64,000 bases of DNA. Origin: Millionella massiliensis. Lineage in GTDB: Bacteria; Bacteroidota; Bacteroidia; Bacteroidales; Rikenellaceae. The first letter of the stretch is position 1, and every line of letters begins with the position of its first letter. Positions 23,661-48,270 of the stretch are shown piece by piece. Location: NCBI RefSeq assembly GCF_900104655.1, contig NZ_FNWD01000002.1, positions 124,001-188,000 of the forward strand, read 5' to 3'. Made by a program: the position numbers and the translations under genes. Under the pieces are notes generated by a model. The model was not told the DNA's origin. It worked only from the letters and a program-made list of their open reading frames with translations, and ran no database searches.

Positions 23661-24512
23661 TTAGCGGGTCAGGTTTTTGGGTGAGCGGCCGGTCTGCCGG
23701 CGAAAAACGCGCGAAAAGTATTGTGGCGACTGGAATCCGCAGGCAAAGCAGACCTCCTTGACGGAGAGTTCCGTGTGACGGAGCAGTTCGATGGCCCGGT
23801 CGATGCGTACCTGTGTAAGGTATTCCAGCGGCGAGAGGCCGAGGTAGCGGTCGAACAGTTTGCGCAGGTAGCGGCTGCTCACGCCTGCCGTGGAGGCCAC
23901 TTCGATCATGGTGATGTCGTTGGCGAAGCGGTCGCGGATGCACGATATGGCAGCCTGCATGGCCGGGTCGGTGCAGAGCGGAAGATAAGTCTGGTTCAGG
24001 TAGCGGCGGAGCAGGATCAGCAGCTCGGTGTAGTAGAGGAGTACCAGCTGGGGGTAGTACTCGCGGCGTTCGTCGAGTTCGTTGACGATCTGCTGTACGG
24101 CCTGGGTGATGCGCAGGTTGTTGGCGATGCGGACCAGGCGGTTGGCTTCGGGATTGTCGGCCGAAAAGAGGGTGTGGGCGGCGCTTCCGGGCGGCACGAG
24201 GATGTCGGGCTGGAATTCGAGCTGGATCAGGGTAGCTCCTTCGGGGCCGGCTTCGAAACGATGGTCGGTGTCGGAGCCGATAATCATCATTTCGTCGCGT
24301 TTGAAGCTGGCGCTTTCGTTCTCCAGCCGCAGGATGCAGTTCCCCTTCTTGACGTAGTTGATCTCGATGCGGCGGTGGCGGTGCGGGCCGTAGGTCTCGT
24401 ATGGACGGAAGGAGATGATGCGCGATACTTCGGCCAGCCGCGTGTGTTGCGGGTCGTCCGTGATCGTTTTGAGCAGTTCCCAGATGGATTGTGCCGATGG
24501 TGTCTCCTTCAT
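23661..24512 (-). CDS. AraC family transcriptional regulator
   Basis: 283 residues. The N-terminal half is a cupin-type sensor (YGPHRHRRIEINYVKKGNCIL). The C-terminal half has two helix-turn-helix motifs (TMIEVASTAGVSSRYLRKLFDRYLG and LSVKEVCFACGFQSPQYFSRVFRRQTGRSP). It lies just upstream of the GH2-GH95 operon on the same strand, so a sugar-responsive activator of those genes is the simplest reading. A -7-like TAACTTTA is at 24549-24542, between it and the metallophosphoesterase gene. Confidence 0.92.
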   Translation of the reverse strand: MKETPSAQSIWELLKTITDDPQHTRLAEVSRIISFRPYETYGPHRHRRIEINYVKKGNCILRLENESASFKRDEMMIIGSDTDHRFEAGPEGATLIQLEFQPDILVPPGSAAHTLFSADNPEANRLVRIANNLRITQAVQQIVNELDERREYYPQLVLLYYTELLILLRRYLNQTYLPLCTDPAMQAAISCIRDRFANDITMIEVASTAGVSSRYLRKLFDRYLGLSPLEYLTQVRIDRAIELLRHTELSVKEVCFACGFQSPQYFSRVFRRQTGRSPKNLTR

Positions 24513-26300: not shown

Positions 26301-26843
26301 CTATTCTATATGTAAACCAGTCTGATAAGCCTGCTCCATGGCGGGAGATCCTTCGATGTCGCCGATCTGCCAGGCGCCGACCCCATAGATGGTTTCACGT
26401 TCGATCGGGTTTTCCAGGCAGTCGAGGAAGCCTCGAAAGGCGTCGATCGTGCGCTCCATGTCGGCCACGTTTTGTTCGGCCGCAGAGATGATGAAGTAGA
26501 AGATCTTGTTTTTCATCTCCAGATAGCGGGCACAGGCCCGGTCGATCAGGGTCTTCATCTGTGCGCTGACGGTGTAGAAATAGACCGGGGTGGCCATGAC
26601 GATCACGTCGGCAGCGACCATCTTTTCCAGTACGGCTGCCGCGTCGTCGTGCTGGGGACACGGCCGCTCGCCGTTGTAACAGGTGCCGCATCCGGTGCAG
26701 TAGTGGATGTTGAGGGTGCGGAGGGTTATTTTCTCGACCTGATGGCCGGCTTCGAGCGCACCGGCCATGAAACGGTCGCACAGACGGTCGGAGTTGCCGC
26801 CTCGCCGGGGCGTGGAGGAGATAATCAGAACGCGTTTGCTCAT
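26301..26843 (-). CDS. Flavodoxin-family NAD(P)H-dependent oxidoreductase
   Basis: 180 residues from the ATG at 26843. The upstream open frame to 26936 is leader, because VLIISSTPRRGGNSDRLCDRFM, the FMN phosphate-binding loop, must lie at the N-terminus. YCTGCGTCYNGERPC (about 48-62) is the Cys-rich insertion seen in iron-sulfur flavoprotein-like reductases; MATPVYFYTVSAQMKTLIDRAC follows. It likely transfers electrons from NAD(P)H through FMN. It is divergent from an AraC gene and preceded by operator copy A and a TACCTTTG -7 box, so it is a probable target of that regulator. Confidence 0.88.
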   Translation of the reverse strand: MSKRVLIISSTPRRGGNSDRLCDRFMAGALEAGHQVEKITLRTLNIHYCTGCGTCYNGERPCPQHDDAAAVLEKMVAADVIVMATPVYFYTVSAQMKTLIDRACARYLEMKNKIFYFIISAAEQNVADMERTIDAFRGFLDCLENPIERETIYGVGAWQIGDIEGSPAMEQAYQTGLHIE

Positions 26844-26933: not shown

Positions 26934-26941
26934 CAAAGGTA
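26934..26941 (-). promoter_or_regulatory. -7 element of flavodoxin gene
   Basis: TACCTTTG on the minus strand; its upstream edge is 31 bases from the proximal half-site of operator A. No -33 TTG. Confidence 0.65.
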
Positions 26942-26971
26942 CGGAGTCGGTCGTTGCGGCGGCGTAGATGG

Positions 26972-26999
26972 ATTACGGATTCTGTTACCTGAATTACGG
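26972..26999. promoter_or_regulatory. AraC-type operator, copy A
   Basis: ATTACGG (26972), TTACC (26985), ATTACGG (26993). The half-sites are a direct repeat with a 21-base period, two helical turns, as AraC-family dimers require. Confidence 0.75.
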
Positions 27000-27168
27000 G
27001 TGAGGGGAACCGGCATGCGTAGGGGTACGGGGGGATTGTGGGAGAAAGAGGTTCTCCGCGGGTATTCTCGCCGCGGGTTTGAAATGGTGGGATGCAAGGC
27101 AGGGGGCTGCGGAAGAGAGGGTGGTGTGGCGATGGCGGGCAGTGTCTGGTGCCCGATAAGGTATATCG

Positions 27169-27196
27169 ATTCCGGATTCTCTTACCCGAATTACGG
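27169..27196. promoter_or_regulatory. AraC-type operator, copy B
   Basis: ATTCCGG (27169), TTACC (27182), ATTACGG (27190), same 21-base period. It lies 20 bases upstream of the -33 element of the AraC gene, so autoregulation is likely. Confidence 0.75.
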
Positions 27197-27215
27197 ATTC
27201 CGCCCGGAACTGGGG

Positions 27216-27244
27216 TTGGAAACGGCTGAAAGCGTGTATCTTTG
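27216..27244 (+). promoter_or_regulatory. Promoter of AraC regulator gene
   Basis: TTG (27216-27218), 18-base spacer, TATCTTTG (27237-27244); ATG 24 bases further on. Unlike its targets it has a -33 element. Confidence 0.65.
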
Positions 27245-27267: not shown

Positions 27268-28170
27268 ATGGAAAAGGAGATTCTGAACGTCGACACGGTC
27301 GATGCGTACAATAAATTGCTGGGGGTCGAGACGCTCCATCCGCTGGTGAGTGTGATCGATATGTCGCAGTGTCCGCCGATGCGCCACATGCGCTACTCGT
27401 TTGGGGTGTATGCGATTTATCTGAAAGAGGTCAAGTGCGGAGACCTGCGCTATGGGCGTCACTATTACGATTACCAGGAAGGAACGGTGGTCTGTATTGC
27501 GCCCGGACAAGTGGTGGGAGGCGAGGATACGGGCGAAATGTTCCAGCCGAAAGGGTGGGCGTTGCTGTTCCACCCCGACCTGATCCGTGGCACCTCGCTG
27601 GGACAGCACATGAAAGAGTATACGTTCTTCTCGTATGAGTCCAACGAAGCGCTCCACCTTTCGGAACGTGAGCGGACCATGGTAGTCGAATGTTTTCTGA
27701 AGATCCGTCACGAACTGGAACATGCCATCGACCGTCACAGCAAACGGTTGATTGCCATCAATATCGAAATGCTGCTGGACTACTGCCTGCGGTTCTACGA
27801 ACGGCAGTTTATCACGCGTGCAGAGGTGAATCGCGACGTGCTTACGCGTTTCGAGACGCTGCTCGACGACTATTTTGCCGGAGACCGTGCGCTGCGTGAC
27901 GGTTTGCCATCGGTGCGCTACTGCGCAGGTGAATTGTGCCTCTCGCCCAACTATTTTGGGGATTTGGTCAAAAAGGAGACCGGCAAAACGGCTCAGGAAT
28001 ATATCCAGCTGAAGCTGATCGGTGTGGCCAAGGAGCGGGTCATGGATCCGGCCAAAACGATCAGTCAGGTGGCCTACGAGTTGGGCTTTCAGTATCCCCA
28101 GCACTTCACACGTCTGTTTAAAAAGGTGACGGGCTGTACGCCCAACGAATATCGAACGCAACGCAATTAG
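27268..28170 (+). CDS. AraC family regulator, proposed master of the redox/TonB regulon
   Basis: 300 residues. The N-terminal half (1-170) is a cupin-like sensor with GVYAIYLKEVKCGDLRYGRHYYDYQEGTVVCIAPGQ. The C-terminal 100 residues hold two helix-turn-helix units, including CAGELCLSPNYFGDLVKKETGKTAQEYI and KTISQVAYELGFQYPQHFTRLFKKVTGCTPNEYR. AraC/flavodoxin divergent pairs are frequent in Bacteroidetes. Operators A and B flank its promoter region, and matching copies lie ahead of the aldo/keto reductase and TonB operons. The effector is unknown; the sensor domain suggests a small molecule. Confidence 0.92.
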   Translation: MEKEILNVDTVDAYNKLLGVETLHPLVSVIDMSQCPPMRHMRYSFGVYAIYLKEVKCGDLRYGRHYYDYQEGTVVCIAPGQVVGGEDTGEMFQPKGWALLFHPDLIRGTSLGQHMKEYTFFSYESNEALHLSERERTMVVECFLKIRHELEHAIDRHSKRLIAINIEMLLDYCLRFYERQFITRAEVNRDVLTRFETLLDDYFAGDRALRDGLPSVRYCAGELCLSPNYFGDLVKKETGKTAQEYIQLKLIGVAKERVMDPAKTISQVAYELGFQYPQHFTRLFKKVTGCTPNEYRTQRN

Positions 28171-30594: not shown

Positions 30595-31434
30595 TTATCT
30601 CCAGTTCATAAACATTTTGACCGTCTCGGGATCGTGGTGGTCGAAGAACAGGCTCTTCCCGGTGTCGAGCGTCGCGATGGCCGCCATATCTTCGTCGGTC
30701 AGTTCGAAGTCGAAGATACGCATATTTTCCTGCATTCGTTCCGCATGGGTCGATTTCGGAATGATAATGACGTCGCGCTGGAGCAGCCAGCGCAGCGCAA
30801 CCTGTGCCGTGCTCTTGCCGTAACGTTGTCCGATCTGGCTCAGCAGCGGATTGGTAAACAGTTGGTTGCGTCCCTCGGCAAAGGGCCCCCACGACATGAT
30901 GCGGGTGCCGAATTCCGCCAGATATCGCTGGGCCTGGGTTTGCTGGTCGAATACGTGTGTCTCGACCTGATTGACGGCCGGGACGACCTCGACGTTGCTG
31001 GCCAGGTCGATGAAGTGGTCGGGGTAGAAGTTGCTGACTCCGATTGCGCGCAGTTTGCCTGCCCGATAGGCCTCTTCCAGTGCACGGTAGGCGCCGTATC
31101 GGTCGCAGAAGGGCTGGTGGAGCAGCATCAGGTCGATGTGGTCGGTTTGCAACTTGCGCAGGCTCTCGTCGATCGATGCCCGGGCTTTCTCGTAGCCGTA
31201 GTTCGATATCCAGATTTTGGAAACGAGGAAAATGTCGTTGCGGTCGATCCCGCTTTTGCGGATGGCGTTGCCGACCTCCGTTTCGTTGTGGTAGGCCTGG
31301 GCTGTGTCGATCATGCGGTAACCGATCCGCAGTGCGTCGCTGACGCAACGTTCGCACTTGGCGGGGCTGACTTGGTAGACGCCGTAGCCGATCTGAGGCA
31401 TCTCGACGCCGTTGTTCAGGGTGATTGTTTTCAT
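30595..31434 (-). CDS. Aldo/keto reductase
   Basis: 279 residues from the ATG at 31434; the open frame up to 31749 is leader and carries the operator. AKR landmarks: GYRMIDTAQAYHNETEVGNAI with catalytic Asp and Tyr, LVSKIWISNYGY (Lys), LMLLHQPFCDRY (His), AIGVSNFYPDHF, and the NADPH-binding IIPKSTHAERMQENMRIFDF. It reduces carbonyls with NADPH in the cytoplasm. Full family length; first gene of the operon with the flavin reductase. Confidence 0.93.
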   Translation of the reverse strand: MKTITLNNGVEMPQIGYGVYQVSPAKCERCVSDALRIGYRMIDTAQAYHNETEVGNAIRKSGIDRNDIFLVSKIWISNYGYEKARASIDESLRKLQTDHIDLMLLHQPFCDRYGAYRALEEAYRAGKLRAIGVSNFYPDHFIDLASNVEVVPAVNQVETHVFDQQTQAQRYLAEFGTRIMSWGPFAEGRNQLFTNPLLSQIGQRYGKSTAQVALRWLLQRDVIIIPKSTHAERMQENMRIFDFELTDEDMAAIATLDTGKSLFFDHHDPETVKMFMNWR

Positions 31435-31550: not shown

Positions 31551-31558
31551 CAAAGTTA
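31551..31558 (-). promoter_or_regulatory. -7 element of AKR-flavin reductase operon
   Basis: TAACTTTG on the minus strand; upstream edge 31 bases from the proximal half-site of operator C. No -33 TTG. Confidence 0.65.
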
Positions 31559-31588
31559 CCGGAATTGAGGCCGTTTCTGCTTACGTGA

Positions 31589-31616
31589 ATTACGGGTTCG
31601 TTTACCCGAATTGCGG
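31589..31616. promoter_or_regulatory. AraC-type operator, copy C
   Basis: ATTACGG (31589), TTACC (31602), ATTGCGG (31610), 21-base period. A partial extra copy TTACGTGA (31581) sits closer to the promoter. Confidence 0.75.
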
Positions 31617-45365: not shown

Positions 45366-46328
45366 TTAGTCCAGCTGGACCAGTTCGTACTGCTGGCTGC
45401 CGAGGCCGATCGTTTCGCCGTATTCGAGCGTGTGCATACCGTGGCGGGAGTCGATGCGTTCGATCAGATGGATCTTGCCGTGATCTTCCGAAGCACGCAC
45501 CAGGTCGGTGCAGGCTTTGTCCAGCGCCACCGGGTCGAGCGAAGCCAGAATGCCGATGTCGCCCATCTTCGGGTCTTCGGGCGAGGAGTCGCAATCGCAG
45601 TCGACCGACAGGTTGTTGGCTACGCTGATGTAGAGAATCCGGTCGCCGCAGTGGTCGGCAACGGCCTTGGCCGCTTCGGCCATCGACTCCAGAAAGTCGT
45701 CCTGCTCGGGGAGGTTGTTCCACATCTCGGCCGTATTTTTGGTTTTGCCGGCCGTGTGGATCCACGCCTTGCCGCTCGACGAGGCGATGCCGATCGACAT
45801 GTTCTTGATGGCGCCGCCGAAACCGCCCATGGCGTGACCCTTGAAGTGCGACAGGATGATCGTGAAGTCGTAGTTCGGGTAGCTCTGTCCGACATAATCC
45901 TCCGTGAGGTGTTTGCCGCCCGTGACCGGCAGGGCGACTTCGCCTTCGGCGTCCATGATTTCGACCGGTGCAATAGCTGTAAAACCGTGCTCTTCGGCGG
46001 CTTTCAGGTGTGCTTCCGTCTGTGAACGTCCGCCCTGGTAGGCGGTGTTACATTCGACGATGGTGCCGTCGACCAGTTGTACGAGGTCCTTGATCAGAGC
46101 GGGTTGCAGAAAGTTGTGGCCGCCGGGTTCGCCGGTCGACACTTTGACCGCTACCTTGCCCTGCGCCTCGCGACCGAGGGCCTTATAGATGTTGACGAGA
46201 TTTTCGGCCGAAATCTCCTTGTACATGTAGACTTTGGGAAGGTCCGTCTCTTTTTGCGCGCAGGAGCTGAGCGTGGTCGCCCCCGCAAACAGCAGACAGC
46301 CGAGTGTCAGTGGGATGATCCGTTTCAT
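45366..46328 (-). CDS. DUF362 domain lipoprotein
   Basis: 320 residues. Lipoprotein signal MKRIIPLTLGCLLFAGATTLSSC (lipobox LSSC). The DUF362 region shows GKVAVKVSTGEPGGHNFLQPALIKDLV, VECNTAYQGGRS, ILSHFKGHAMGGFGGAIKNMSIGIASSSGK and a terminal DSRHGMHTLEYGETIGLGSQQYELV. DUF362 proteins are often fused to or associated with ferredoxins; here no 4Fe-4S motif is present, but CDCD (about residue 235) is a possible metal site. It follows the TonB receptor by 18 bases. As a surface lipoprotein it may work with the receptor under the AraC regulon. Confidence 0.85.
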   Translation of the reverse strand: MKRIIPLTLGCLLFAGATTLSSCAQKETDLPKVYMYKEISAENLVNIYKALGREAQGKVAVKVSTGEPGGHNFLQPALIKDLVQLVDGTIVECNTAYQGGRSQTEAHLKAAEEHGFTAIAPVEIMDAEGEVALPVTGGKHLTEDYVGQSYPNYDFTIILSHFKGHAMGGFGGAIKNMSIGIASSSGKAWIHTAGKTKNTAEMWNNLPEQDDFLESMAEAAKAVADHCGDRILYISVANNLSVDCDCDSSPEDPKMGDIGILASLDPVALDKACTDLVRASEDHGKIHLIERIDSRHGMHTLEYGETIGLGSQQYELVQLD

Positions 46329-46346: not shown

Positions 46347-48257
46347 TTAAAAATTCAGTTTGACGCCGAACATGGCGGTGGCGCGGGGCATCGGGAAGCC
46401 GGCGTTGATTTCGTATCGTTGGGCCAGGAGGTTCTCGCCGCGCCCCCACACGGTCAGCCAGGAGTTGATCCGGAAGGATGCTTGCAGGTTCCACAGTGTG
46501 AAGTCTTCGGTTTGTCGCGGGTCGAGCGAGGTGTAGAGGCCGGCAATGTATTGGATACCGGTAGAGAGGTACCACCGTCCGCGCGAGAAGTCGACGCTGC
46601 CGTAGAGTTTATGCTCGGGCGAGGCCAGAACGGGATTCTCCATGTGCAGGTAGCTGTAGTTGGCCGAGAAGGACCAGACGGGCGAGAGACGATAGCCGAT
46701 TTGGGCTTCGACACCGGCGTTTTCGATGCGGCCGGTGTTGATGTTCATTGGACGACCGTCTACCGGTACGCGCATAATCAGGTTGTCGCCGTTGATGTAG
46801 AAAAGGTTGACGCCGTAGCTGAGCCGATTGTCGAGCAGCTGTTGGCTGTATGAAATTTCGTAGCTCCAGAGGCTTTCGGGTTTGAGGTCGGGGTTGGCCG
46901 GGCGGAACATGTACATCTCGCGGATGGTGGGGTAGCGGAAACCCTTGCTGGCCATCAGTTTGAGTTGTGCGTTGTGTGGCAGGGTGAATGACAGACCAGC
47001 CTGCGGGACCCATTCGGTGCCGACATGCGAGTGGTGGTCGAGACGCAGACCGATGTCGAAGGTGAGCCACGAGGCGAGGGTCTGGCGAAAATCCACATAT
47101 CCGGCTACTTCGTCCTGGGTTTTGTCAACCAGCGGCTCTTCCGTTCCGTCGAGGTACCGGTTCCAGGAGCGGCCGCCGAAGTGGAAGTAGTCGACGCCGA
47201 CGGTCAGCCGGTTGCCGCTGAACAGACGCGCGCTCTGGTACCAGGACAGGCCGAACATCTTGTCGCGCGACTCGAACCGGTAGTCAAGCGGCGTTTCGTC
47301 GGGATGGTAGCCGTCGTTGATCCAGTGGTCGCCCCAGTTGGCGAAGAAACTGAGCGACCCGGAGGTGTGCTCGTAGTCGTTCTCGAGGGCCAGCGAGGCC
47401 ATGCCGCGAGTGATCCGTTGGTCGTTGTCGATCAGCGGGTCGAAGGTCTCGCCGGGATTCGATGCGTTGAAGTGGGTCACGCTGACGTCGCCCCACAGGT
47501 TCCAGTGGTCCGAAAATTCGTAGCCCAGCTTGGCGTAGCCGCTGTATTGTTCGAACCCCATGTCGGGTCGGTGACCGTCGGTGCGGTTGTAGGAGGCGCT
47601 GAGGATGCAGGTGAAGCGGCCTTTGCGGATGCGGTTGGTCACTTCGCTCTGGAAGGTGTTGTAGGAGCCGTAACCGAGGTTGGCGTGGGTTTTGACGCCC
47701 TCTTCCTGCATTTTGCGCGTGACGATGTTGATAACGCCGCCCATGGCGTTCGAGCCGTAGAGTACCGATGCGGGGCCGCGCAGCACTTCGACGCGTTCGG
47801 CGATCATGCCCTGGTAGGCGTCGGAGATGGGGTGTCCCATCAGACCGGCGTACTGCGGGTGTCCGTCGATCAGAACGAGCATGCCGGTAGTGGGCAGCCC
47901 GGCCTGAGGTGAACCGCCGACGCCGCGCAGGGAGATCTGTCCGGCCGAACCGCCCGAAACGCCGTAACCCATCAGGCCGCGTCCGGTGATGAACAGGCCG
48001 GGAACCTGTTCGGTCAGCAGGGGCAGCAGCGACGGGGTGTTGCTGCGTTCGATCTTGTCGCGACCGACGATCGATAGGGTCATCGGCAGGTGGCGGATGT
48101 CGGTGCGGTTACGGGTCCCGGTGACGACTACTTGGTCAGTCGTGAGGGTGTCGAGTGTCGGGCCGGCGATCGTTTGCGTCGCGGCTGCGGAGGTCTGTGC
48201 TGCGACGGAACCACATAGGGCCATGCTGGCCAGCAGGAGGAGTGAGTGCTTTTTCAT
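46347..48257 (-). CDS. TonB-dependent outer membrane receptor
   Basis: 636 residues with signal peptide MKKHSLLLLASMALCGSVAAQ. TonB-box-like DQVVVTGTRNRTD (about 42-54), then the plug domain with RVEVLRGPASVLYGSNAMGGVINIVTRK, and a beta-barrel ending in ATAMFGVKLNF with the C-terminal Phe. BtuB/FepA-type size without the carboxypeptidase-like extension of SusC proteins, so a metal chelate, heme, cobalamin or small cofactor is the likely ligand. First gene of the operon with DUF362. The promoter carries operator D. Confidence 0.93.
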   Translation of the reverse strand: MKKHSLLLLASMALCGSVAAQTSAAATQTIAGPTLDTLTTDQVVVTGTRNRTDIRHLPMTLSIVGRDKIERSNTPSLLPLLTEQVPGLFITGRGLMGYGVSGGSAGQISLRGVGGSPQAGLPTTGMLVLIDGHPQYAGLMGHPISDAYQGMIAERVEVLRGPASVLYGSNAMGGVINIVTRKMQEEGVKTHANLGYGSYNTFQSEVTNRIRKGRFTCILSASYNRTDGHRPDMGFEQYSGYAKLGYEFSDHWNLWGDVSVTHFNASNPGETFDPLIDNDQRITRGMASLALENDYEHTSGSLSFFANWGDHWINDGYHPDETPLDYRFESRDKMFGLSWYQSARLFSGNRLTVGVDYFHFGGRSWNRYLDGTEEPLVDKTQDEVAGYVDFRQTLASWLTFDIGLRLDHHSHVGTEWVPQAGLSFTLPHNAQLKLMASKGFRYPTIREMYMFRPANPDLKPESLWSYEISYSQQLLDNRLSYGVNLFYINGDNLIMRVPVDGRPMNINTGRIENAGVEAQIGYRLSPVWSFSANYSYLHMENPVLASPEHKLYGSVDFSRGRWYLSTGIQYIAGLYTSLDPRQTEDFTLWNLQASFRINSWLTVWGRGENLLAQRYEINAGFPMPRATAMFGVKLNF

Positions 48258-48262
48258 CGCAA

Positions 48263-48270
48263 CAAAGGTA
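48263..48270 (-). promoter_or_regulatory. -7 element of TonB receptor operon
   Basis: TACCTTTG on the minus strand, upstream edge 31 bases from the proximal half-site of operator D. It ends 5 bases before the ATG, so the message would be nearly leaderless. No -33 TTG. Confidence 0.65.

Follow-up and report, generated by a model that had tools for sequence, protein, structure and literature searches.

A directly repeated operator and a two-sided promoter geometry point to a candidate AraC-family redox-defence regulon in Millionella massiliensis and its relatives

Results

An AraC-family gene and four operator copies in the window

The window, the whole stretch of DNA analysed here, comprises 64,000 nt of the Millionella massiliensis genome. 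It holds a gene for an AraC-family regulator (araC), with a putative operator at its promoter, and further operator copies upstream of genes for a flavodoxin-fold FMN reductase, an aldo/keto reductase (AKR) and a TonB-dependent receptor:

26301..26843, minus strand: NADPH-dependent FMN reductase/flavodoxin-fold protein, 180 aa (PF03358, E 6.5e-25; PF02525, E 3.6e-16)
26934..26941, minus strand: -7 box TACCTTTG of the flavodoxin/FMN-reductase gene (spacing scan)
26965..26999, minus strand: operator of the flavodoxin/FMN-reductase promoter, two direct repeats (motif scan)
27162..27196, minus strand: operator at the araC promoter, reversed relative to araC (motif scan, geometry)
27237..27244, plus strand: -7 box TATCTTTG of araC, 40 bp beyond the operator (spacing)
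27268..28170, plus strand: AraC-family regulator, 300 aa (C-terminal HTH_18; N-terminal AraC/RhaR-like fold in a model)
30595..31434, minus strand: DkgA-like AKR, 279 aa (37% identical to E. coli DkgA over 266 columns)
31551..31558, minus strand: -7 box TAACTTTG of the AKR gene (spacing scan)
31582..31616, minus strand: operator of the AKR promoter (motif scan)
45366..46328, minus strand: DUF362 protein, directly downstream of the TonB gene (PF04015, E 2e-50)
46347..48257, minus strand: TonB-dependent outer-membrane receptor, 636 aa (PF00593, E 2e-41; PF07715, E 1.4e-18)
48263..48270, minus strand: -7 box TACCTTTG of the TonB receptor gene, lying 5 nt before the start codon
48294..48328, minus strand: operator of the TonB receptor promoter (motif scan)

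NCBIfam DkgA was the best model for the AKR, at 243 bits, below its cut-off of 425. The TonB and DUF362 genes presumably form one operon. Since the TonB start codon lies 5 nt past the -7 box, the message should be nearly leaderless; the same distance from TAnnTTTG was seen in three genomes (window 48257-48270, L198 and L200). Next to a metallophosphoesterase gene, 23661-24512 encodes another AraC-family regulator, which is unrelated to the first and has a Pfam AraC_binding domain.

The operator motif matched at 26972 without mismatch and at 27169, 31589 and 48301 with one mismatch each, the four positions given in the original prediction, and was absent from all 100 dinucleotide shuffles. Read in the sense of the regulated gene, the operator is a direct repeat, CCGTAATnnnGGTAA-N6-CCGTAATnnGTnTA, of two units of about 15 bp with the 21-base period that had been proposed. 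Three of its four blocks had been recognised correctly, while the second block of the promoter-proximal repeat, GTnTA, had been overlooked. The description of a four-copy element also proved too narrow, as the genome has at least seven candidate sites. Across all 2,888,820 bases, allowing up to three mismatches, we found ten matches as against one for the reversed pattern. The six copies outside the window have three mismatches each: C1:118139, C1:212767 and C1:1903891 have a -7 box at 29-30 and look real, C1:1102797 and C1:2400905 have no -7 box at this spacing, and C1:2404178 is a repeat of C1:2400905.

A genome-wide scan for the operator together with its spaced -7 box returned five promoters, with no control match: those of the flavodoxin/FMN-reductase, AKR and TonB genes, C1:118139, and C1:1903918 (the same promoter as motif match C1:1903891). 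The operon at C1:118139 encodes a cyclophilin-like protein (PF18050) and then an alpha/beta hydrolase; that at C1:1903918 encodes a cupin and then a Flavodoxin_4 protein. The sixth promoter, at C1:212767 (three mismatches, spacing 29), precedes genes for an alpha/beta hydrolase and a CMD-family protein, and the operator of araC itself is the seventh candidate site. By eye, signal-peptide-like N-termini are present in the cyclophilin-like, cupin and CMD proteins and in one of the two hydrolases.

Spacing of the operator and the -7 box at target promoters

The promoter consensus deduced for B. fragilis is TAnnTTTG at -7 with TTTG near -33 (PMC7366714). At the flavodoxin, AKR and TonB promoters the TAnnTTTG box begins 30 bp past the 28-base operator core. 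The 31 bases reported before are a coordinate difference and correspond to these 30 bases between the near CCGTAAT (ATTACGG) and the box at all three targets; the reported lack of a -33 TTG also held, with TTG in none of the three spacers. The identical promoter geometry named in the original prediction did not extend to araC, where the operator is reversed relative to the gene and ends 40 bp before its -7 box.

The spacing was assessed at 113 distinct sites with up to three mismatches (L001-L110), reduced to 112 by one site near a contig end and to 92 when made non-redundant. TAnnTTTG stood at offset 29-31 in 54 of the 92 family sites, at exactly 30 in 42 of them, and elsewhere in the 120 downstream bases only at 18 (once) and 103 (twice). 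Over 1000 shuffles of the downstream DNA, the mean number of sites with a -7 box at 29-31 was 0.056 and the maximum was 2. The spaced box was missing from 38 of the 92 sites, some of which are recurring coding matches in ORFs of 736-770 codons (L052, L053, L055, L057, L058, L060). When 51 promoters chosen for exact spacing were aligned, every position between operator and -7 box carried at most 0.25 bit, indicating that these promoters have no -33 motif. The aligned copies shared no sequence beyond the operator, the -7 box and short A-rich edges.

At the targets, 23 bp separate the end of the proximal repeat from the -7 box, which places the repeat roughly at the position of a -33 box. Among MarA-type sites, those of class II overlap -35 in forward orientation, and those of class I lie reversed, upstream of -35 (PMC12052159). 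The forward site at the -33 position, with the box at 29-31 in the 54 sites above, would thus resemble a class II arrangement.

The operator at araC promoters across the phylum

Loci around araC were compared in 30 family stretches (the window and 29 others, among 116 matching genomes) and in the best 80 of 589 confirmed phylum stretches; because they were taken as best or listed matches, both sets favour close relatives. The phylum loci include Chryseobacterium, Flavobacterium, Pedobacter, Mucilaginibacter, Chitinophaga, Hymenobacter, Bacteroides, Parabacteroides and Dysgonomonas. An operator with at most three mismatches lies upstream of araC in 73 of the best 80; in the opposite orientation the best match in these 80 has 5-9 mismatches, compared with 0-3 in the 73. 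The pooled set of 110 loci became 102 on removal of 8 exact duplicates (a further pair, L040/L131, is probably one contig) and was scanned in the orientation reversed to araC only, both orientations having been compared in the best 80 of 589. Among these 102 araC genes, 94 have the canonical operator, six have a variant, and two (L148 and L177) have neither. Relatives with the AraC gene, in this set of best matches, therefore keep an operator at its promoter, as the proposed regulator-operator pairing had implied.

In 90 of the 100 pooled best-match loci that have either operator type, the araC -7 box lies 38-41 bp past the operator; in two it is at 28 or 29 bp, about one helical turn nearer, and eight have no exact box. 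A reversed site upstream of the core promoter, as in these 90 loci, is class-I-like. On the divergent side, a -7 box at 29-31 was exact in 37 of the 100 loci and present in 77 when one mismatch was allowed. In the phylum loci, araC promoters have a conserved AA 5-6 nt upstream of the -7 box (52 and 40 of 60), which was not seen at the 51 aligned target promoters.

The araC region of the Rikenella group has two operators, 98-99 bp apart in L012-L015 and 197 bp apart in the window, and many relatives outside that group have one. The variation of these distances among species gives no indication of a fixed loop between the araC-region operators.

We also searched an even sample of 296 phylum genomes for a strict operator (one mismatch), which gave 29 matches in 19 genomes, with 7 matches for the control. 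Five of the 29 came from the window genome, and 14 of the other 24 lay within 120 bp upstream of an AraC match. The regulator was matched at E<=1e-60 in 57 of the 296 genomes, and the strict operator was present in 16 of the 57; many of the AraC-bearing genomes without it have only paralogues of 36-48% identity, so the operator belongs to the regulator's close relatives. The system is widespread in the phylum, not universal.

Co-occurrence in the family and comparison within the genus

A match to the regulator at E<=1e-30 was found in 116 of 268 family genomes. The composite pattern (site plus spacing) matched 224 times in 101 of the 268, and its control matched once; the motif without the -7 box occurred in 87 genomes and its reversed control in 13. 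Both regulator and composite site were present in 94 genomes, the regulator only in 22, the site only in seven and neither in 145 (Fisher p 1.4e-41, a value that treats as independent genomes that share ancestry). The seven site-only genomes include G008, which has four composite sites yet no AraC match at E<=1e-30. The regulator-only genomes are explained in part by the variant operator (G007, G010) and by a spacing of 29 (G172 and G175; L030, L031). The spaced motif greatly exceeds its control frequency, with five matches against no control match in the genome and 224 against one in the family. Chance as the source of the motif, already deemed unlikely in the original prediction, was rejected on these counts, on the 0 of 100 dinucleotide shuffles, and on the shuffled downstream DNA (mean 0.056 against 54 sites).

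The window genome is in the same genus as G221, and its TonB gene was matched in four other members (G222-G225). The operator is present upstream of the gene in G224 (L198) and G225 (L200). In G223, a genome 91% complete, the TonB gene is 78% identical and lacks an operator at up to four mismatches (L199); the gene there follows a cupin-like coding sequence, and the genome has no close AraC (best E 2.5e-6). The G222 stretch (L201) starts inside the TonB gene at a contig end and is uninformative on the operator. G224 has the TonB operator, yet just one AraC match at E<=1e-30, of 55% identity.

The other window targets are arranged variously. In R. microfusus (L116), the AKR and FMN reductase genes both run divergently from araC; the operators detected there were those on the araC side only, and the fetched AKR flank (L205) has no operator. 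The flanks fetched for three FMN reductase matches (L212-L214) likewise contain no operator. L117 and L118 have the FMN reductase on the divergent strand, behind a hydrolase gene; their AKR follows a cupin/CMD gene on the opposite side of araC. G225 has a two-mismatch operator, with no exact -7 box, upstream of a cupin/CMD-AKR pair (L203).

Co-variation of operator and regulator

Six loci (L039, L127, L129, L130, L132, L134) have, at the same place, the variant operator CnGTGnnTnnGTGAAG...CnGTnTTTTGTATA, with the araC -7 box 39-40 bp beyond it. We compared regulator residues across the 110 loci before de-duplication (the window, 29 family loci and the best 80 of 589 phylum loci). All six variant regulators have V283 and lack Q243, while the 102 canonical loci have Q243 in 95 and V283 in six; one canonical locus has S243 with V283, the same pair as variant locus L134. 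A scan of the family with the variant pattern gave five matches with no or one mismatch, all adjoining an AraC gene with an N-terminal KNCDL signature; two of these (G007, and G137 by identical sequence) are loci used to build the pattern. Two three-mismatch matches had no such gene, and the control matched once. The co-variation of operator and HTH may be one evolutionary event, and for that reason it supports, and does not prove, direct recognition.

Target genes in relatives

Target genes were tallied from a sample of 40 stretches, 37 of them hand-chosen around motif matches, among the matches listed; the tally, like the 51-promoter alignment, covers only sites preselected for a spaced -7 box, and cluster names come from one representative each. 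The spacing test on the 92 sites was made without that preselection. The first genes at the 65 spaced sites encode alpha/beta hydrolases (19), cupin/CMD proteins (7), TonB receptors (6), flavodoxins (4), NapH-like polyferredoxins (4), metallo-beta-lactamase-fold proteins (3) and DUF1893 proteins (3). FMN reductase, DkgA-like AKR, AKR-ferredoxin, Fe-ADH, flavin reductase-ABM and SDR account for two each, and six proteins occur singly; some are doubtful short ORFs.

Relatives of the window targets that carry an operator include TonB genes in L043, L095, L099, L105 and L106, an AKR in L101 and an FMN reductase in L093. In L164 and L186 the TonB gene is directly divergent from araC, its -7 box at 29-30 of a three-mismatch operator, and in L186 the TonB-DUF362 pair is again beside araC. 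Around araC in the best 80 of 589 phylum loci, AKR_3-type AKR genes occur in 33, DkgA-like AKRs in 23, cupin/CMD genes in 22 and flavodoxins in 19 (by best BLAST label), and SDR genes recur. These predicted functions suggest electrophile or redox defence.

The regulator protein

The protein encoded at 27268 has a C-terminal double-HTH AraC domain (PF12833, E 2.4e-20; PF00165, E 5.2e-17). No Pfam domain matched its N terminus, and AraC_N (PF06719) was absent at E<=0.1. An N-terminal regulatory domain was recognised by fold only, in a model with pLDDT 84.6 and pTM 0.63: the target TM score was 0.71 for the RhaR regulatory domain (5u93) and 0.52-0.65 for AraC (1xja/2arc). The best E-values went to full-length AraC-family regulators (Rns, CsvR, ToxT), at TM of about 0.3-0.4. 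Of 52 aligned proteins, 44 retain Cys57, 47 Cys142 and 50 Cys173, a pattern that would allow thiol sensing. At position 57 the variant-operator group and three canonical loci have Asn, so the system does not depend on Cys57.

The same genome has a paralogue at C1:280569-281447 (L110:2070-2948), 46% identical to the 27268 protein and divergent from two AKR genes. Nearby is a degenerate operator-like repeat (eight mismatches) followed at similar spacing by a TAGCTTTG box.

Discussion

We propose, with a probability of about 0.82, that the AraC-family protein encoded at 27268 is an activator that drives its targets in a class-II-like manner and its own gene in a class-I-like manner. The interpretation of the operator as that of an AraC regulon was already part of the original prediction, and it is supported by the co-occurrence of site and regulator, the conserved operator at araC and the comparison with the G223 TonB gene; the activating role is deduced from the class-II- and class-I-like geometry and the missing -33 box. 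The protein, presumably as a dimer, would bind the two direct half-sites. With the proximal half-site at the -33 position, 23 bp before the -7 box, the bound protein would replace the missing -33 contact at the flavodoxin, AKR and TonB-DUF362 promoters and at those of three further operons in the genome. At araC, the reversed operator about 40 bp before the -7 box has a class-I place and orientation, and the regulator probably activates itself too. The signal would be read by the N-terminal domain, possibly through the conserved cysteines; that it is a reactive electrophile or redox stress (aldehydes, quinones, oxidants), as the target functions hint, we rate at about even odds.

The operator might instead serve repression, the protein shutting off itself or its targets until an inducer relieves it. 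Divergent AraC-type proteins can repress their own gene, and in many relatives a single operator is common to the araC and target promoters, but the operator leaves the -7 box uncovered on both sides, lies clear of the araC core promoter (with 38-41 bp between it and the -7 box in 90 of 100 loci), and faces target promoters that have no -33 motif, as activator dependence would predict; we hold repression to be distinctly improbable. It also seems improbable that some of the sites are in truth controlled by another AraC protein, either the C1:280569 paralogue or the unrelated regulator at 23661-24512. A 54%-identical paralogue with similar upstream sites (G225:C37, L107) and the TonB operator in G224, with its 55%-identical AraC match, speak for such a division; against it, the best match to the full operator in the DNA fetched around C1:280569 has eight mismatches, the canonical operator recurs at promoters of 27268 relatives in 94 of 102 best-match loci, and operator and HTH residues co-vary. 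That the copies are a dispersed repeat (mobile or REP-like) with no regulatory role has a probability close to nil. Several similar copies do lie within 22 kb, but they share only the operator, the -7 box and short A-rich edges; the site keeps its place beside araC in distant relatives, and G223, which has no close AraC, has no operator at its TonB gene. A dispersed repeat was rejected because the alignment contains no long shared flanks.

The regulon could also serve nutrient uptake or catabolism, for instance of the TonB receptor's substrate: the TonB-DUF362 pair belongs to the predicted regulon, the sensor domain as modelled is similar to those of RhaR and AraC, both sugar regulators, and proteins of the dienelactone-hydrolase-like, CMD and cupin types are known from aromatic catabolism as well. 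The recurring targets, however, do not make up one pathway but a varying assortment of oxidoreductases (AKR, Fe-ADH, Zn-ADH, SDR, flavin reductase, flavodoxin), and we consider the nutrient explanation rather unlikely. Returning to the activator proposed above, its asymmetric operator, conserved next to the regulator's close relatives in genera from Flavobacterium and Chryseobacterium to Hymenobacter and Bacteroides, may be a two-faced switch. In one direction it would give class-II activation of redox defence and in the other class-I autoactivation, both at a fixed distance. In Rikenellaceae it would have spread to scattered operons, forming a partly envelope-directed electrophile-defence regulon that includes TonB, and operator and HTH would have changed together at least once. 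This broader scenario has, in our estimate, an even chance of being right.

Within the known AraC kind, the predicted system is notable for its breadth and two-sided geometry. MarA binds one asymmetric marbox as a monomer and has no sensor domain, whereas the present system combines two direct repeats with a sensor domain, and many genomes have one operator with a -7 box at a fixed distance on each side. In terms of the MarA-type site classes introduced above (PMC12052159), the target side would fit class II and the araC side class I. E. coli AraC acts at araI1-I2, two direct half-sites with a 21-bp period and the proximal one at -35. The system described here shares the 21-bp direct repeats and a modelled N-terminal fold like the AraC/RhaR regulatory domains; unlike E. 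coli AraC, it has no sugar-catabolic targets in view and no sign of looping.

E. coli YqhC is an AraC-family activator whose gene is divergent from yqhD-dkgA, which encode an aldehyde reductase and an aldo/keto reductase, and it responds to glyoxal and furfural (PMC5297802). A likeness may lie in the predicted targets: the window AKR is 37% identical to DkgA, and an Fe-ADH is a candidate target in relatives (L046). The regulators differ, with only the HTH region aligning well (26% over 80 columns), and YqhC has Pfam AraC_N (E 1.5e-40) while the 27268 protein does not; on the absence of AraC_N (PF06719) we rejected membership of the YqhC group. Here the predicted targets are also dispersed, and among them are a TonB receptor, flavodoxins, cupin/CMD proteins and hydrolases. 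The Bacteroides hybrid two-component (HTCS) proteins are polysaccharide sensor-kinase hybrids, whereas the 27268 protein is of the one-component type. The accessible main text of the HTCS paper (PMC3878776) lacks the words flavodoxin, keto reductase and aldo, and neither its accessible portion nor that of PMC10434189 describes this regulon. Among the papers listed in our search of the open-licence PMC literature we found no description of it, which is weak evidence of absence.

With operator, two-sided spacing rule and regulator defined together, targets can be predicted directly in gut and environmental Bacteroidota, and the operator offers a ready reporter for finding the signal. The regulator family was matched at E<=1e-30 in 116 of the 268 family genomes and at E<=1e-60 in 57 of the 296 phylum genomes sampled. 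Several close operator-like sites, mostly of the CTGTAATTGGGGTTAT type, also lie near tandem AraC paralogues at G018:C1:4125-9454 and G153:C1:2438104-2442695, suggesting a paralogue with its own local regulon.
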